Shown here piece by piece: positions 1,158 through 36,604 of a stretch of DNA of 36,604 bases. The notes below the pieces were generated by a model that saw only the letters and a program-made list of their open reading frames with translations, was not told the origin of the DNA and did no database searches. The stretch covers positions 1 to 36,604 of the IMG/VR virus record IMGVR_UViG_3300021518_000048, one strand, 5' to 3'. This DNA comes from a virus. Made by a program: the position numbers and the translations under genes. Every line of letters starts with the position of its first letter. Positions within the stretch are counted from its first letter, which is position 1.

Positions 1158-2099
1158 ATGGAACAACTTAATCCTTCCGATTTAAAAGCAATTTTACATT
1201 CTAAGCGTGCCAATCTTTATTACCTTGAACATGCACGTGTCATGCAAAAAGATGGTCGAGTTTTATATCTCACAGAAGCCAAAAATGAAAACCAATATTG
1301 GAATATTCCAATCGCCAATACCACGGTCATTTTATTGGGTACAGGCACATCCATTACCCAAGCGGCAATGCGGATGCTCGCCAGTGCAGGGGTGTTGGTC
1401 GGTTTTACAGGCGGCGGTGGAACGCCTTTATTTATGGGGAGCGAAATTGAATGGATGATGCCACAAAGTGAATATCGTCCAACAGAGTACATGCAGGGGT
1501 GGATGAGCTTTTGGTTTGATGAGGTGAAACGTTTAGAGGTCGCAAAGCAATTTCAGTTCGCGCGTATCGAATTTATCCGTAAAGTTTGGGCTAAAGATCG
1601 GGATTTACAAGCCGAAGGATTTTATCTGGATGACCAAGATATCACCCAGGCGTTAACAGGATTTGAAAAGAAAATTCCGCATCAAAGCAAAGTTGGTGAT
1701 TTGTTGCTTGCTGAAGCACAAATGACCAAGCAGCTTTATAAAATTGCGGCAACACGTTGCAAACTCAGTTTTGAACGCAATCCTGAGCAGGGGGATTTAG
1801 CCAATGATTTTTTGAATCATGGTAATTATCTCGCCTATGGTTTAGCTGCAACCACGCTTTGGGTATTAGGCATTTCTCATTCATTTGCTGTGATGCACGG
1901 TAAAACTCGACGTGGTGCTTTGGTGTTTGATGTAGCGGATTTAATTAAAGATGCTGTGGTTTTGCCTTGGGCATTTATTTGTGCCAAAGAGGGCATGAAA
2001 GAGCAGGAGTTTAGACAGCAGTTACTGCAAAAATTTACTGAATATCGCTGTTTGGATTGGATGTTTGATCAGGTGAAAGAAAAATCAATTAAATTTTAA
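1158..2099 (+). CDS. cas1: Type I-F CRISPR-associated integrase Cas1
   Basis: Cas1 is the metal-dependent nuclease/integrase that inserts new spacers, acting in type I-F with the Cas2 part of Cas2-3. The 313-aa length and sequence fit type I-F Cas1: an N-terminal beta domain (about 1-105, with VILLGTGTSITQAAMRMLA) and a helical catalytic domain. Expected active-site residues are E186 (LLLAEAQMTK), H247 (AVMHGKTRRG) and D258/D261 (LVFDVADLIKD). No frameshift or missing catalytic residue is visible. In an intact I-F operon cas2-3 follows directly on the same strand; here about 33 kb of prophage plus a small DUF2188 gene intervene. The ribosome site before the ATG (AAGAGAAATCATAACA) is weak. The promoter should lie in the 50 bp after the preceding terminator. 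Confidence 0.95.
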   Translation: MEQLNPSDLKAILHSKRANLYYLEHARVMQKDGRVLYLTEAKNENQYWNIPIANTTVILLGTGTSITQAAMRMLASAGVLVGFTGGGGTPLFMGSEIEWMMPQSEYRPTEYMQGWMSFWFDEVKRLEVAKQFQFARIEFIRKVWAKDRDLQAEGFYLDDQDITQALTGFEKKIPHQSKVGDLLLAEAQMTKQLYKIAATRCKLSFERNPEQGDLANDFLNHGNYLAYGLAATTLWVLGISHSFAVMHGKTRRGALVFDVADLIKDAVVLPWAFICAKEGMKEQEFRQQLLQKFTEYRCLDWMFDQVKEKSIKF

Positions 2100-2446: not shown

Positions 2447-2473
2447 TGTAAGTTTTCGCGCAATTTTGCACTA
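2447..2473 (+). repeat. Prophage right-end terminal repeat (attR side)
   Basis: It begins TGTAAGTTTTCGCGC and carries TTTTGCACTA starting 18 bases in. A second TTTTGCACTAG copy lies 22 bp further in, at 2486-2496. The outer 27 bp share TGTRAGTT and TGCACTA at identical spacing with the opposite end, as expected for transposase-binding sites. The tail fibre gene stops about 80 bp inside. Confidence 0.75.
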
Positions 2474-2551
2474 ATTCATTTTTAATTTTGCACTAGAATT
2501 ATCAATAAGCCGTACTTCACACGACTTACCCATACTTATAACAACCCTGAG

Positions 2552-22679: not shown

Positions 22680-24230
22680 CTACATATATTTAAAATCTGA
22701 AAGTAAGCTGTCCAAATCATCACCAAACTCATCGGACTCTAGGCTTATTGAAATTGACATAAATTCAATTGGCGCTTCAGGATTGCAACTCGCAAAGTCA
22801 CAAAGCAAGTGAGCAATACCACTGTCACCATGTCGGTTTTTATCCGTATTAGATTTTCCTGCTTCAGGAATGCGGGCAACACCTTTGACTAGCACAAACG
22901 CCCGATGATCTTCTTGAATATCCCGATCCGCTGGCATATCAATAATTTCACCATCTTCTAAAGCTGATTTGAAATGTGGCGTATTCTCTCGATACCAGCC
23001 CTCATTGAGCATGACCGCTTCAATACGTTCGCCATAGACGATTTTTAAAGCTTCAGCTAAAAAGCCGCCATTACCTGTGGCATCTTGTGCGCCTTTCCGT
23101 AGGTTCGGCAACATAGCTAAAATAAGCAGCATGACTTTTTCTTGTTGTTTGTAAGGCACGTTAAACATTTCAAAAACAAACGGGCAGTAGCGTCTGCCGT
23201 CTTGCTTACGCTGATTCAGCCAAAGTGAACAAGCATTTTTCTTACGTGCAAAGTCTAAGCCGTAGTAGCTTTCTTCTTGTCGTGGCAGGGCTTCAAGTAA
23301 AGGTTTAAGGTGTTCATTAAACCATTCTTCTATCTCAATCATACGGCTGATTTCAGACGTATCTTTATACTCCCAATGCTTTGGTGCTGTGAAACGTAAA
23401 ACTGGAATATCAAAGTTTTTACGCTTATTGAGCAAAGCAACTGACAGCCATTTGCCGCCACCATTACTCGGAATAACATCCAATTCTTCAGAAGCGCCAT
23501 CGCCATAGAATGAATAGATTTCATCTACCCAGACTTTTTCTTCTTCTAAATCGTAGTCTGTACCTTTACGCATACAAACACGTTTATAAAGCCCTTGTTC
23601 AACGGCTTCATGAAAGGTGACGCGATGTACTGTACCTTTACGCTTTCCAGCTCTAATCTCTTGGATCAGTACATTAAACGGATTATCTTCACCGTCATGT
23701 GTACTAATAATCCGAACTTTACCGCCCCAAATTAAGAAAGCCATAGCCGCCTTAATTAGCTCATCTAGGTCATCATGGAATGCAGCTTCATCAAGTACCA
23801 AAATACCTTGTCGACCACGCAAGTTAGATGGTCGACTGGTGAGCGCTTCAATTCTTAAACCCGACTTCGGAAAACGAATAATAAACGTTTGAATCTGTTT
23901 ATCACCGTCCTCCCAAATACCATCCTCAATCTCAGCCGCCGCAAGGTCATAGGCTTTCGCCCACATTGCACAGGCTTGGATAAATTCGACAGTCATATCT
24001 TTGTTGTAGCCAACATAATAGATATTCTGTCCACCCGCATTGCGATCCGTTGATGCAATCAATGCAACGTCGGCAGCTTCAGCCCAAGTCAGACCAATAC
24101 GACGCGATTTTTCCGCAATTTTAAGCGGGCTTTCATCCGCGACCCATTGCTGTTGATATGGCAGTAAGACTGCTGGAACTCGGTCAAACTCAGGCAACAA
24201 GTCGGCAAGTGGGGACGGGTTCATTGTCAT
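22680..24230 (-). CDS. Terminase large subunit (Mu gp28)
   Basis: This 516-aa packaging ATPase/nuclease has an N-terminal ATPase domain with the Mu-type Walker A region (EKSRRIGLTWAEA near 39-51), Walker B (GILVLDEAAFHDDLDEL near 143-159) and coupling motif (VRIISTHDGEDNPFN near 172-186). The C-terminal nuclease domain starts near YYGLDFARKKNACSLW, whose Asp should be a metal ligand. Mu relatives package by headful from the prophage end. It overlaps the small terminase by ATGA. Confidence 0.93.
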   Translation of the reverse strand: MTMNPSPLADLLPEFDRVPAVLLPYQQQWVADESPLKIAEKSRRIGLTWAEAADVALIASTDRNAGGQNIYYVGYNKDMTVEFIQACAMWAKAYDLAAAEIEDGIWEDGDKQIQTFIIRFPKSGLRIEALTSRPSNLRGRQGILVLDEAAFHDDLDELIKAAMAFLIWGGKVRIISTHDGEDNPFNVLIQEIRAGKRKGTVHRVTFHEAVEQGLYKRVCMRKGTDYDLEEEKVWVDEIYSFYGDGASEELDVIPSNGGGKWLSVALLNKRKNFDIPVLRFTAPKHWEYKDTSEISRMIEIEEWFNEHLKPLLEALPRQEESYYGLDFARKKNACSLWLNQRKQDGRRYCPFVFEMFNVPYKQQEKVMLLILAMLPNLRKGAQDATGNGGFLAEALKIVYGERIEAVMLNEGWYRENTPHFKSALEDGEIIDMPADRDIQEDHRAFVLVKGVARIPEAGKSNTDKNRHGDSGIAHLLCDFASCNPEAPIEFMSISISLESDEFGDDLDSLLSDFKYM

Positions 24231-24775
24231 TTTTTAGCAATCCCCAAAATTTGAGATCGAATTTCAGCAGCCGATTCTTGAGACAGACCGCCTTTTTTGA
24301 CAATATTTTCAACCGCTTTGGCTGCGGCTTCAACTTTATCTTTAATCTCAAGCTCCCACTTTTTCTGATTGACAGAAGCTTTAGCAATCTCAGCAATACC
24401 TTTACCCGCTTTAGCTAACAGCATGATACGGTCTGCTGGATCAGCATCAGGGTTATCAGACTCTTGCAAAGCAAGAAGAGCATTGAACAATTCAGTTTGA
24501 ACCAAAGACAACACTGCCGAACTGCGTAAATCACCATCATCAGGTGCAGCATCTGCAATCATCATGGCTGCTTGTGTACTGGCTTGAACCGCCGCGAGTT
24601 TATTTTCAAGTTTTTGACCGTAGCGATGAATAGAAGATTTCCCAATTGAATAGCCTAACTCAGTCAGTTTATTGGCAATTTCTTCATACCCACAAAAACC
24701 CTTATCCATGAGCCAACGATCAAGTTTTTGCTTGTCTTCAGGTTTTAGCTGATCAATTGCAGATTCACGCCCCAT
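24227..24775 (-). CDS. Terminase small subunit (Mu gp27, DUF3486)
   Basis: The ATG at 24775, preceded by GGCAGGGG, gives 182 aa in the DUF3486 family. The N-terminal helix-turn-helix (KLDRWLMDKGFCGYEEIANK then LGYSIGKSSIHRYGQKLENK) binds DNA at the packaging start. The helical remainder should oligomerise and contact the large subunit. It starts 2 bp after the preceding stop and overlaps terminase by ATGA. Confidence 0.9.
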   Translation of the reverse strand: MGRESAIDQLKPEDKQKLDRWLMDKGFCGYEEIANKLTELGYSIGKSSIHRYGQKLENKLAAVQASTQAAMMIADAAPDDGDLRSSAVLSLVQTELFNALLALQESDNPDADPADRIMLLAKAGKGIAEIAKASVNQKKWELEIKDKVEAAAKAVENIVKKGGLSQESAAEIRSQILGIAKK

Positions 24776-31559: not shown

Positions 31560-33734
31560 CTAAAGCCCGATTGCTGATCGTAGTTGCTCAGTCTCTTTAA
31601 GATGCTGTTGCAACTGTTGATCTTCATTACATAAGCGTTTGAACTTCTTAGAAAGTTGAAATGCTCCCCAAAATTCCTTGTCACTATCATTGACAGACTC
31701 GCCCGCTAAAATCGCCTGATCTAGGCTCATCCATTTGCCAATTTGCTCATCAATTGAAACTATAGGAACAGCTTCCATTTCATCGACTGGCAAAGCATAT
31801 TTAGGTTTAAACTCTTCAACTTGTTTGACTGGTAGAGCTTCAATCTCGGCTAAAATCTCAGCATTTGAACGTAATTGACGATTAGGGAATGGAATCACTG
31901 TCTGTTGTTCAATATGTTCAATCACACGTCTAGGATTCAGTTCCTCCATGACTTCACGCTGTTTCACTGCAAGACGATCCAAACGACCCTGAGCGCGTTT
32001 TTCTCTAGCTTGTTCAATGACAGGTTTAGGAAAATAGTCACGTCTATTGGCATCCCACATTGCATGGCAAATAAATTGACCATCCAAGTTGCGAACTGTA
32101 ATTTTGTCAGCGTCATGAATGTCATAGCCGACTAAAACCGTATCGTTGTGATATTCCTCAAGTAGCTTTGAAAAATAGATATTGCTAAACAGACGGATTT
32201 CACAGCGCAGAACCTTACGTTCTTCATACGGACGAAACATATCCTCAGCATCCCAGTCCTGCACAATATGAACAGGTAACTCGCCATGCTCAGACCATGC
32301 CTCATTTGGCGTTTGATGACGCTTTTTCATCGTCATGGGGTCAGTGATACGCTTCAGAGAGCGATGAGGCTTGTTGTTGTAAAGAGCTACCACATTGGCT
32401 GCAAGTTCCATAAAATCAGACCATGAGATCAAGGCTTTAGACTCGCCAAATTCGATAATGTCCTTACGTGTGATCTTGTGGACTGTTTGGCTTGCTTCTG
32501 CATCCATGTCCTTACCAATGTAAGTAGGCAAAGTTTTGGCAGCATTGACCCATAGCGTTTTATGGCTACGTTCAATTAAACCTTTACCCTGCGAGTTATA
32601 AGGCAGAGCATGTGAGACCGTGATATTTAAGCGACTTAACACACCACGCCCTTGAGCTGTCAGTAAGTCATTCTTATAGCCAGAGCCATTATCAACATAG
32701 AAAATTGCTGGTATGCCATGTAATGTTGCACACATGCGAATTGCATCAAGCACAGCCCAAGAACTTTCAGACAATGACACTGACCAACCAACCATTTTTC
32801 GAGAAGCAACATCTAAAATTGCTGTAATTTCAGGACGAAATGGCTTTCCATGCATAGGGTGAGCTACCTCAGCATCAAAGCAGTGACCATCGGCTGTGTA
32901 GACATCTGCGGGTAATAGGTCTTTACTATCTCGACGTATAAAAGCTTTGATATTTTTAATATCACGGCTACCCATACGACCTTTTTCACGTTCAACAGCC
33001 CCAAGTTTCTGAATAAAATTGCGTGCTTGGGTGTAGCTTGGTTGCTCACCGCTGTAATAAGACGGCAAGAACTCAAGACAAGCTGCTAGAGTCGGTTTCT
33101 GTGGTCTGCGATAAAGCGTGAGTAAAGCTTCAGCCCAATCAGGAATATCCTTTTTTGCCCGTTCTTTGGGTGCAAGAACACTGATTGCGCTTATATTTTT
33201 TCCCTCAGCAAACTCAACTGAACCAAACCAGTCAAACAAGGTGCGGCGGCTAACCACACGATTGTCACCAGACTTTGCATTAGCTTTCAAAACAGCTTCT
33301 TGCAGTTCAGGTGGTAGGCTGCGGTTTGTAGCATCGGCAATCAATTGCTCAATAGTGCGTGTGATCCGCGTTCCATGATTCACTTGCTGCTGTAAAAACC
33401 GCACGATAAACAAACGGTTTTCTGCAATCTCACGTTGCCAATTACTTAGCTGGTTAGCTGACTGAATTGGTTGTGATGGGTTAGTTTCAATTAGCCCTGT
33501 TTCTAATTCCACAGTTGCAGTTAGATTTCTGCTTTTAAGAACTTTTGATATGATTAAGTTCTTAAAATTATCATTAGGTTCGTATTCTCGACGAACACCC
33601 CCTTTCCCGCGACTAGGAACTTCTTTATACTTCCAATTGTTTCGTGTTAAGAACTTGTCTAATCCTTTTTGACTTTTAGGTAAGCCATCAAGCTCTAATT
33701 CAAGTAATTCGGTTACACTGTAATGAGTTTTCAT
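31560..33734 (-). CDS. DDE transposase (MuA)
   Basis: At 724 aa this is the Mu A family transposase, which cuts and joins phage ends for integration and replication. The N-terminal Mu-type winged helix (HYSVTELLELELDGLPKSQK near 4-23, then GLDKFLTRNNWKYKEVPSRG) and the following helical domain bind the ends. The rve catalytic domain carries the DDE triad: D282 (VYTADGHCFD), D348 (FYVDNGSGYKN) and E388 (GLIERSHKTLW). The C-terminal domain ends with charged helices that in Mu contact MuB and ClpX. It starts 2 bp after the Ner stop. No lesions seen. Confidence 0.96.
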   Translation of the reverse strand: MKTHYSVTELLELELDGLPKSQKGLDKFLTRNNWKYKEVPSRGKGGVRREYEPNDNFKNLIISKVLKSRNLTATVELETGLIETNPSQPIQSANQLSNWQREIAENRLFIVRFLQQQVNHGTRITRTIEQLIADATNRSLPPELQEAVLKANAKSGDNRVVSRRTLFDWFGSVEFAEGKNISAISVLAPKERAKKDIPDWAEALLTLYRRPQKPTLAACLEFLPSYYSGEQPSYTQARNFIQKLGAVEREKGRMGSRDIKNIKAFIRRDSKDLLPADVYTADGHCFDAEVAHPMHGKPFRPEITAILDVASRKMVGWSVSLSESSWAVLDAIRMCATLHGIPAIFYVDNGSGYKNDLLTAQGRGVLSRLNITVSHALPYNSQGKGLIERSHKTLWVNAAKTLPTYIGKDMDAEASQTVHKITRKDIIEFGESKALISWSDFMELAANVVALYNNKPHRSLKRITDPMTMKKRHQTPNEAWSEHGELPVHIVQDWDAEDMFRPYEERKVLRCEIRLFSNIYFSKLLEEYHNDTVLVGYDIHDADKITVRNLDGQFICHAMWDANRRDYFPKPVIEQAREKRAQGRLDRLAVKQREVMEELNPRRVIEHIEQQTVIPFPNRQLRSNAEILAEIEALPVKQVEEFKPKYALPVDEMEAVPIVSIDEQIGKWMSLDQAILAGESVNDSDKEFWGAFQLSKKFKRLCNEDQQLQQHLKETEQLRSAIGL

Positions 33735-34124: not shown

Positions 34125-34200
34125 AATTTTTATTGGATTTTATAAAATTCAATATTATCAATAACTTATTTTGGTTCTTAAAATAAAGGAATTATGTGTT

Positions 34201-34872
34201 ATGAGTTCTAATAAAGCTAAAAGTAATTCAGAACTAGAGAATCCATTAAAAGATCGTATAAAAGTTCTTATGACACCTGATGAACTTGAAAAACCATATA
34301 GTTTTGCAACACGGGTGGGGTTATCAAAAGGTACATTTACTGGAATATGGGTAGAAGGGAGAAAATCCTTCCATCAAACTACTGTAGAAAAAATATGTAA
34401 GGCTACAGGTGCAAACCCTGGTTGGTTAGTGACGGGAATAGGAGAGCCATTTACGGATGTTGTTCCAGCAGTTCAACAAGAACAAACCACACTGGTAGAG
34501 CCACAGATCATAGAGGAAGAGGGTTTAAAGATTACAACGGCTATAGATAAAGCCATGCTACAAACCGCATTAGAAACAACAGAAAAAAAGCTTAGAGAAC
34601 AGCATCTTACTATGCAACCAAAGCCTAAAGCCGAATTCATTCTTATGCTTTATGAAATCCTGATTGACCAAGAAAAACAGTCATATAACAAGCAGTTATT
34701 GAATGATGTGATCTATGAAGTAGAAGAATGTTTAGAAAGGCTACATAAAATGATGCTAGTTGATAAAAAAACCTTATTAATAATAGCAATTTATACATTA
34801 TATAGTGTAAATTCACAGGACAAGAACGGAATTAGACAGACCGTTACAGACATTGTTAGGAAAGCTGCATAA
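34201..34872 (+). CDS. Prophage repressor (CI-like HTH, no peptidase domain)
   Basis: The ATG at 34201 gives 223 aa, divergent from the early operon. The N-terminal HTH (SFATRVGLSKGTFTGIWVEG near 36-55, then CKATGANPGWLVTGIGEPF) resembles CI-type repressors. The C-terminal half is helical (AFILMLYEILIDQ-like, ECLERLHKMMLVDKKTLLII) and has no recognisable S24/LexA Ser-Lys peptidase, so RecA-stimulated cleavage is not expected. It should keep the prophage silent by binding the AGTTCTT sites. It is read toward cas2-3. The AGGA ribosome site is 11 bp upstream, a little far. Confidence 0.85.
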   Translation: MSSNKAKSNSELENPLKDRIKVLMTPDELEKPYSFATRVGLSKGTFTGIWVEGRKSFHQTTVEKICKATGANPGWLVTGIGEPFTDVVPAVQQEQTTLVEPQIIEEEGLKITTAIDKAMLQTALETTEKKLREQHLTMQPKPKAEFILMLYEILIDQEKQSYNKQLLNDVIYEVEECLERLHKMMLVDKKTLLIIAIYTLYSVNSQDKNGIRQTVTDIVRKAA

Positions 34873-34873
34873 T

Positions 34874-35065
34874 ATGCCTGAGAGAACAAACATTTTACAA
34901 TTCTTAGACCACCACACACAGGGAGATAAGCAACCACATACTATGCTAAAATTTGAGCATAAAGGCTGTAAAATAGAACTCACGACTATGAATGGCAAAG
35001 AAAATGCTAGGGAGTTGTTAGAAACCTGTTTACAAGCTGTTTATTTAAAAAACGATGCAAAATAA
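34874..35065 (+). CDS. Small protein downstream of the repressor, 63 aa
   Basis: ATG at 34874 lies 1 bp after the repressor stop, so the two are coupled. The product starts MPERTNILQFLDHHTQGDKQ and has a strand pair (TMLKFEHKGCKIELTTMNG) and a helix (NARELLETCLQAVYL). Not recognised. Being in the repressor operon it should be made in the lysogen, which fits genes for immunity or host effects. Confidence 0.6.
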   Translation: MPERTNILQFLDHHTQGDKQPHTMLKFEHKGCKIELTTMNGKENARELLETCLQAVYLKNDAK

Positions 35066-35170
35066 AATAAAAAAACGCCTGTTTTGCTACCGATAATCCA
35101 ATTTCGGTGCAAAAAAATGGATAAAGCCATGATCCAGCCTTATCCTCTTTAAAAAATCCTCAAACCTTTA

Positions 35171-35220
35171 CGCTTCAATCATTTCATCCCGCTTCATCCC
35201 ATTTCTTCCCGTCTCATCCC
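35171..35220 (+). repeat. Five 10-bp tandem units (TTCATCCC array)
   Basis: Consecutive 10-mers CGCTTCAATC, ATTTCATCCC, GCTTCATCCC, ATTTCTTCCC, GTCTCATCCC. Consensus is NYTTCATCCC with exact 10-bp period, so each unit faces the same side of the helix. It lies 37 bp inside the phage left end. Confidence 0.85.
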
Positions 35221-35230
35221 ACGCATAGCC

Positions 35231-35257
35231 TAGTGCAGAATCAATCAGTAACTCACA
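35231..35257 (-). repeat. Prophage left-end terminal repeat (attL side)
   Basis: Read inward on the minus strand it begins TGTGAGTTACTGATTGATTC and then TGCACTAG. TGTRAGTT and TGCACTA match the opposite end with the same 12-base gap. The phage thus ends in CA at 35257, 28 bp before the cas2-3 ATG. Confidence 0.75.
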
Positions 35258-35285
35258 AATCTATATCAGATGAGGAAAAATAATA

Positions 35286-36604
35286 ATGATCGTCACTTTT
35301 ATCTCTCAGTGTGAAAAGAAAGCGATTCCTCGAACTCGCCGTGTACTTGATGCTTTTGCGGATCGAATTGGTGACAATACATGGCAAACAGTCATTACCG
35401 AAGATGGTTTGATTGCTGTTAAAAAATTGTTGAGAAAGACCGTTACTAAAAGTACGGCGGTCAGTTGCCACTGGATTCGTGGTCGTCGTAGAAGTGAGTT
35501 GCTGTGGGTCGTTGGAAATCGGAATAAGTTTAATACGCAGGGGATTGTGCCTGTGAATACCACCAAGAAAAAATTAGATCAAAATAAATGGGAAAATGAC
35601 TGGCATTATTTACCTCTGATTAAAGCGTTGGTTGCCGTGTCCGCACTACTTCACGATTGGGGCAAAGCAACGGTTTTATTTCAGCAGAAACTCCTCAGTA
35701 AAAATAACCAATTCAAAGGTGATCCTTTACGGCATGAATGGATTTCTTGTCTTTTGCTCAATGCATTGGTTCAATCATCGGGCGATATTGAAACTGATGA
35801 AGCATGGCTCAATTTATTTATCAGTCAAAGCTGGAATGAAGAAGTACTCAAACAAACGATTGTAAAAAACTCAGACCAATCTAAAGTTTTAGATCAACTT
35901 CCACCTTTAGCACAGTTGGTTGCATGGTTGATCGTGTCACACCATCGTTTACCCAATTTAAAAAGTGAAGAAGAATATAAGAAATATGGCAGTGAAGATG
36001 TTTCATATATAAATAATTTATTTGAATTGATCAAAACAGATTGGGGTTACCAAAATAAATTTGAGGAAAAAGAATACCAACAACGCCTTAAATTGTGCTT
36101 TGAGTTTAAACAAGGTTTGTTGACTCAGTCATTTGAATGGAACAAACAAATTAAAAAATGGTCAACACGTTTATTACAGGAGTCTCAAGTATCACAACAG
36201 ATATTTGCGGATGGGAGTTGGCGAGTGATTTTACATTATGCCAGATTGTGTCTTATGTTAGGTGATCACTATTATTCATCTTGTGAGGCGGATAAAACGT
36301 GGAAAACCAACTTATCACTCGTTGCAAATACTGACCCAAAAACGAAACAAGCCAAACAATTTTTAGATGAGCATTTAGTACGCGTTAGTGACAATGCGAT
36401 GCGAGTCGCTCAATCTTTAAGTCGCTTAGCCGATGATATGGAGCCTGCTTATGATATTCAAAAATTAAAAAAGAAGAGTCCGCAAGGTTTTGAATGGCAA
36501 GATCAGGCAGTGAAAGGGATACAGCAATTTATTCAAAAAAATGAGGGAGTAGAGAAACAAGGTTGGTTTATTGTCAATATGGCGAGTACGGGTAAGGGTA
36601 AAAC
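35286..36604 (+). CDS. cas3: Type I-F Cas2-Cas3 fusion nuclease-helicase, partial
   Basis: The frame is open from the ATG (35286, GAGGAAAAATAATA upstream) to the right edge, 439 codons. In type I-F, Cas2 is fused to Cas3. Residues 1-95 are the Cas2-like domain (IVTFISQCEKKAIPRTRRVL, WVVGNRNKFNTQGIVPV). The HD nuclease follows with LLHDWGK (H123, D124), DPLRHEW and SHHRLPN. The helicase begins with Walker A NMASTGKGK at the very edge. The protein degrades DNA captured by Cascade and, through Cas2, works with Cas1 in spacer uptake. Its upstream operon context is cut off by the prophage 28 bp before the start. Confidence 0.96.
   Translation, partial: MIVTFISQCEKKAIPRTRRVLDAFADRIGDNTWQTVITEDGLIAVKKLLRKTVTKSTAVSCHWIRGRRRSELLWVVGNRNKFNTQGIVPVNTTKKKLDQNKWENDWHYLPLIKALVAVSALLHDWGKATVLFQQKLLSKNNQFKGDPLRHEWISCLLLNALVQSSGDIETDEAWLNLFISQSWNEEVLKQTIVKNSDQSKVLDQLPPLAQLVAWLIVSHHRLPNLKSEEEYKKYGSEDVSYINNLFELIKTDWGYQNKFEEKEYQQRLKLCFEFKQGLLTQSFEWNKQIKKWSTRLLQESQVSQQIFADGSWRVILHYARLCLMLGDHYYSSCEADKTWKTNLSLVANTDPKTKQAKQFLDEHLVRVSDNAMRVAQSLSRLADDMEPAYDIQKLKKKSPQGFEWQDQAVKGIQQFIQKNEGVEKQGWFIVNMASTGKGK

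Follow-up and report, generated by a model that had tools for sequence, protein, structure and literature searches.

The DNA analysed here is a window of 36,604 nucleotides, an IMG/VR virus record in which a Mu-like prophage sits between type I-F cas1 and cas2-3. Just inside the left terminus of the prophage lies a short tandem array with an exact 10-bp period, and the locus raises the question of what this array is for and which protein, if any, reads it. The features used to address this question are collected in Table 1.

Table 1. Features of the window, with coordinates from its first nucleotide.
Feature	Coordinates	Strand	Basis or remark
Four-unit array YGGGA-N5, exact 10-bp period	35182..35221	-	Proposed pac/TerS-binding site, from sequence
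Fifth unit of the first-pass annotation, unconserved	35171..35181	-	Sequence and column profile of 48 ends
Phage left terminus	35257	-	TGTGAGTTAC... reading inward; relatives' blastn matches and end alignment
Putative transposase end site L1, core TCTGCACT	35232..35239	-	19 bp from terminus
Putative transposase site L2, core TTTGCACC	35106..35113	-	145 bp from terminus
Putative transposase site L3, core TTTGCATC	35054..35061	-	197 bp from terminus
Terminator-like hairpin, array-L2 interval	35114..35150		Arms 35114-35127 and 35137-35150
Right terminus, best placement	2447	+	TGTAAGTTTTCGCG...TTTTGCACT; by symmetry with left end
Putative R1 and R2 cores	2465..2494	+	22 bp apart; 19 and 41 bp from right terminus
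Small terminase TerS, Mu gp27 family	24227..24775	-	PF11985, E 1e-47; proposed array reader
516-aa ORF adjoining TerS, large terminase by position	22680..24230	-	Gene-order inference; no Pfam match
Mu-type transposase	31560..33734	-	rve, Mu-transpos_C
Cro/cI-like repressor	34171..34872	+	Transcribed toward left end
Host type I-F cas2-3	35286..36604	+	Cut by window end
Host cas1	1158..2099	+

On the minus strand, from 35221 down to 35182, the units are TGGGATGAGA, CGGGAAGAAA, TGGGATGAAG and CGGGATGAAA, each of the form YGGGA(T), and TRF reported rows at 35182-35220 (period 10) and 35180-35221 (period 20). The first-pass annotation had described five 10-bp units of consensus NYTTCATCCC; the tandem array and its exact period held at 35181-35220, but the fifth unit did not, leaving four good units. 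The segment 35171-35180 (CGCTTCAATC) agrees with that consensus at just 2-3 positions. The array edge at 35221 is 36 bp inside the left terminus, and the distances given earlier, 37 bp from edge 35220 to the terminus at 35257 and 65 bp to the cas2-3 ATG at 35286, were correct. A motif-free score, in which any 6-column word repeated four times within the first 110 bp is counted, reached 23 at a period of 10 bp in the window left end, compared to at most 17 at periods of 7-9 and 11-14 bp (P = 0.001 for the 10-bp period, 1000 shuffles). The array is real and more than chance.

The left terminus was placed by blastn of the window left end against the loci found with the transposase. Most relatives' matches begin exactly at the base equal to 35257, and the aligned ends follow a common plan with a different host flank at each locus. 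Read inward from this base on the minus strand, the phage opens with TGTGAGTTACTGATTGATTCTGCACTAGGCTATGCG, followed by the array units. The end-site cores of the window (TTYTGCACY) are distinct from the array and occur at both ends, and no GGGA array was found at the window right end. A hairpin resembling that beyond the array is visible by eye in many relatives. The 5-bp host flanks at 2442-2446 and 35258-35262 are unlike (GAAAT versus AATCT, plus strand) and no target duplication was seen; a deletion or rearrangement next to the prophage is one possible cause. The interval from cas1 to the right terminus contains a DUF2188 gene (2188-2415), and the prophage splits cas1 from cas2-3, which on an A. 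lwoffii plasmid (L177) overlap by 4 bp. A phage and plasmid nucleotide search with the left-end region matched only the cas genes. The suggestion that the array may affect cas2-3 expression is unsupported; the array is phage DNA and does not differ between phages whose insertion sites are unrelated.

The transposase query returned 69 loci, 26 in genomes and 43 viral, and 38 of these carry an array scoring at least 17/20, invariably on the transposase strand and upstream of the transposase. Shuffled loci gave one match at this threshold in 2.09 Mb, and the pattern read backwards gave zero matches in every record or genome searched. In a column profile of 48 ends, which was aligned on the motif so that conservation of the core is partly selected, units 0-3 were conserved, and units -1 and 4 and the spacers were not; across these ends the distance from the terminus to the start of the array is 32 to 44 bp. 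Five close relatives without an array (L009, L012, L034, L038 and L068) have records that extend no more than 1,424 bp beyond the transposase on its upstream side, shorter than or near the usual array-transposase distance of about 1.2-1.8 kb. The first-pass annotation had staked its case on the repeat being present and phased in close relatives, and comparison of their left ends showed that the phase is kept. Short repeats of two to four copies are common, and further weak examples were reported by TRF in the window, but a chance or low-complexity origin is refuted by this conservation; the position, the orientation and the genus-scale association described below also stand against it, and its likelihood is negligible. 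At one locus (L010:2032-2118), a tandem duplication covers the left terminus together with the first array unit, the copies being 43 bp apart. Two human faecal scaffolds, L077 (MT837653) and L078 (MT836460), from unannotated gut phage, have left-end arrays scoring 19 and 17 of 20.

The array is also present in phage Mu, with units CGGGAGGACA, TTGGATTATT, CGGGATCTGA and TGGGATTAGA at bp 32-71 and a score of 19/20, and in SfMu (19) and D108 (18), where it likewise begins at bp 32, directly after L1. The contrast drawn earlier with longer, irregularly spaced Mu left-end sites therefore fails. Groenen and van de Putte reportedly mapped Mu pac in 1985 to about bp 32-54, which we take to lie near the array stretch of the Mu left end.

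Across 39 phage records, PF11985 was found in 25 and the array (at most 3 mismatches) in 17. Both were present in 16, gp27 without an array match in nine, neither in 13 and the array only in one; array-bearing records had one cluster each, at the left end. The array-only record, W14 (Curvibacter phage TJ1), has a 3-mismatch match at 36870-36904 that was rejected as chance-like: no gp27 was found in this record, nor was the match placed at a left end. Five of the nine gp27-only records are without a left end and were retained in the counts: G010, G014 and G018 start at, or within, the gene for the repressor or ner (named by position), and in G012 (L053) and G023 (L067) the sequence ahead of the transposase match amounts to just 338 and 194 bp. 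In two others, G021 and BalMu-1, the array is built from a different word. In G020 and W15, whose left ends are unplaced, gp27 is present and no array was found in these records. Neither gp27 nor the array was found in D3112, DMS3, Ab30, SuMu, 3927AP2 or RcapMu. The transposases of D3112, DMS3 and Ab30 are 36-42% identical to that of the window, yet these phages are array-less; Mu has the array, and its transposase shares only about 25% identity with the window enzyme over half its length.

Seven further phage records were chosen for gp27. B3 and Bise matched the array at 2-3 mismatches and phiSHP3 has three CCGGAAG-type units; the records of Lsp-JY19 and Bhz63 start at base 1 of a gene, and those of PhiKM and KP12 are partial. 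A KP12 relative in E. coli, with its terminus taken as the base where host and phage matches meet, has a weak three-unit array. The TerS query returned 34 viral loci, 31 of which were scanned as records, three being already in the first set; G030 of this set corresponds to L034 of the transposase query. The array was found in five of the 31, in all five at the left end. Each of the nine near-full-length array-less records inspected starts at a point inward of where the array would lie; in five, the first base aligns with base 191 of G031, whose own array occupies 95-139. The other 17 are mostly short. Many IMG/VR prophage records (e.g. G032, G033, G043 and G044) have been cut at the stop codon of the repressor gene and are without the left-end array, and such catalogues therefore hide end signals.

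The five array-bearing records found with TerS have termini unlike that of the window, with TGATACC... in four. The three examined, Acinetobacter phages G031, G034 and G042, have a KP12-type transposase (37-38% identity), of which at most a catalytic piece of 57-58 aa matches the window transposase, while their TerS is 75-79% identical to that of the window and their array is the same. This exchange of transposase and TerS modules is the strongest evidence for assigning the array to packaging rather than to transposition. G003 (L039) has a YGGGA array despite a TerS that is just 26% identical and has a different recognition helix. Tuning of the motif score used the window together with its relatives; the gp27-found records and the genus scan serve as held-out tests. 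Because the phages are related and not independent samples, the P values overstate certainty, and the module swaps and explained exceptions weigh more.

The transposase, a MuB-like filament and a host bending protein, the binders named in the first-pass annotation, are poor candidates because the array follows the small terminase; it tracks TerS across different transposases and is absent in the tested gp27-less phages with a related transposase. As a set of transposase or MuB sites the array was rejected, since it is not at both ends and is unchanged when the transposase changes. A related proposal is that the array bends or organises the L1-L2 spacer for transposase, HU or IHF. It does fall between L1 (19 bp) and L2 (145 bp), phased sites suit bending, and HU acts in the L1-L2 spacer of Mu; however, the array also stands behind unrelated termini and with a different transposase family, is missing from D3112-type phages with a related transposase, and has a word that shifts in step with the TerS lineage. 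The position in the spacer is that of an HU or IHF site, but independence from the packaging module is not seen; the array is tied to that module, such a site was rejected, and a spacer function of this kind is unlikely. A regulatory role, with the array serving a phage regulator as operator or insulator close to the terminator of the repressor gene, would explain why a terminator-like hairpin adjoins the array and why the repressor gene reads toward it. Yet B3 keeps the array beside Mor/GemA genes instead of repressor/ner, and the repressors of array-bearing phages are 30-98% identical to that of the window. With the array kept next to other genes and widely differing repressors, the operator was rejected, and a regulatory element is highly improbable.

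The association with TerS was also assessed in 99 Acinetobacter genomes. The array (at most 1 mismatch) occurred in 10, gp27 in nine and both in eight (Fisher P = 2.3e-9); with the five seed genomes removed, the array and gp27 each occurred in five, with four in common (P = 8e-6). Seven genomes have the two on a single contig, in one orientation and separated by 10.6-12.9 kb, compared to 10.4 kb in the window. The two array-only genomes carry fusions, of transposase 1-341 to portal in G056 (L017) and of half a KP12-type transposase to tail genes in G116 (L231), and TerS was therefore lost by internal deletion. In G153, gp27 is on its own separate contig and the array was not found in that genome. 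Among the genomes of 12 array-bearing loci, gp27 was present in 10, and the other two (L011 and L024) hold internally deleted prophages, as does L015. The left end, array and a partial transposase are fused to portal or tail genes in L015, L017, L011, L024 and G116. These internally deleted prophages resemble natural mini-Mu elements and could be packaged by a helper.

The motif-free score at period 10 was 18-24 for gp27 left ends (P 0.001-0.048), compared to controls of 12-18 for left ends without gp27 and 13-19 for the right ends of 7 phages; most gp27-positive left ends reached 20, above the right-end range. Weaker arrays were those of B3 (19, P = 0.010), phiSHP3 (19, P = 0.002) and the KP12-like prophage (18, P = 0.048), and two controls were near misses, the window right end (19, P = 0.013) and the RR1-B left end (18, P = 0.019). 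The word differed, with the 10-bp phase kept, in Bise and phiSHP3 (CCGGAAG), BalMu-1 (CGTAAA) and G021 (CGAAAC). These results indicated that the 10-bp period is general for the gp27 phages tested and that the word varies. In the window, and in many relatives too, GGG recurs with a 10-bp spacing, which would also suit a structural role that needs no specific protein, as a G-quadruplex (7-nt loops) or through intrinsic curvature, but L008, L028 and L030 have single units with GAG or GTG, and the words CGTAAA and CGAAAC of other gp27 phages cannot form G-tetrads. The G-quadruplex was ruled out on these grounds, and a purely structural element has a very slim chance of being correct.

The TerS recognition helix has [HN]-R at one place in the aligned YGGGA phages and GR in G003, and both CCGGAAG phages have lost the Arg. 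A tie between word and recognition helix is suggestive only, the pattern coming from one weak alignment in which Mu, G003 and BalMu-1 are at 20-26% identity. A short second gp27-family ORF adjoins the left terminus in L122 (4025-4354; PF11985 1-53, the HTH part), and another lies near the record end in G018 (C1:36450-36680; PF11985 3-76); such an ORF is possibly a regulator or decoy using the same word.

Four YGGGA words, one per helical turn, at the left end only, in one orientation and with a gp27-type TerS, are thus the features to be explained. The array lies at the end where packaging starts and only there, and co-occurs with the small terminase across phages and genomes with exceptions such as G020, W15 and G153. 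We propose that it is the left-end packaging-initiation (pac) site of the phage, with a probability of roughly 0.8, and it most likely marks the start of packaging because it follows a packaging protein rather than the transposase. Mu packaging begins at the left end and includes about 50-150 bp of host DNA (PMC5977238; PMC2837660), and the hankyphage is packaged from the left end with 29-31 bp of host DNA (PMC12135933). TerS proteins are described as having an N-terminal HTH and forming oligomers with the HTHs outside (PMC9611059). In the proposed pac site, the array would sit just inside the packaging start point in fixed orientation, and its units would be read one helical turn apart by HTH domains of the terminase, the four words at 10 bp presenting the same face to four successive domains. 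Divergence of TerS would then change the word and leave the 10-bp phase. Terminase binding, the packaging role, the cut position and the stoichiometry are what we infer from these comparisons. The earlier idea of sites on one helix face for an oligomerising protein fits well, with the phase kept in relatives.

In the predicted gp27 structure the HTH region (about residues 11-50) has a pLDDT of about 85 and the helices behind it are of low confidence; Foldseek gave no significant match to the model (best E 0.39), and a PDB sequence search with gp27 gave no match, so that neither search supports a TerS ring. In SF6/SPP1, the TerS HTH domain on its own showed hardly any preference for the pac repeats (PMC4737164), and repeats therefore need not mean sequence-specific HTH contacts. 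The complete oligomer may be required for TerS specificity, or families may differ in this respect. A more specific form of the pac proposal is that four phased words of 5-7 bp, one per turn, are read by neighbouring HTHs of a gp27 oligomer, that this is common to most gp27 transposable phages, and that the word is predictable from the TerS recognition helix; we regard it as evenly balanced between right and wrong. If true, it would give the 'nucleosome' model of TerS-DNA recognition a sequence-specific form.

How small terminases select their own genome is a question that a short phased code, visible in Mu, would make testable. A 2022 review considers all TerS recognition models seriously weak because they leave sequence specificity unexplained (PMC9611059). 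The proposed code varies between phages together with the terminase, and Mu is a classical laboratory system. The array would also allow the left end, the packaging direction and the likely transducing ends of transposable prophages to be read from sequence alone. An open-access literature search found no published description of a 10-bp phased pac array, which is not proof of novelty.

Among known systems, the array is most directly comparable to Mu pac, sharing the left end, the same Mu stretch (array at bp 32-71), a gp27-type terminase and headful packaging from the left end; Mu pac, however, is known as a mapped stretch, whereas here a four-unit 10-bp code appears common to many phages. 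The SPP1/SF6 pac site contains three sets of direct repeats (PMC4737164) and resembles the array in having direct repeats at pac and an HTH-bearing TerS. In that system the repeats lie near the terminase gene and did not attract the isolated HTH domain, whereas the array described here repeats a single word every turn of the helix and is located at the genome end, with 10-13 kb between it and the gene for the terminase. The Mu-like transposase end sites (L1-L3, R1-R3) are also direct repeats at the same end, but they are longer and occur at both ends. The HU site of Mu lies in the same L1-L2 spacer; HU is a general bender, whereas the array is a specific word that follows TerS. The array would combine an ordinary function, that of a pac site, with a form that is unexpected and apparently new to the literature: a code of four helically phased words, present also in Mu, the transposable phage that has been studied best.
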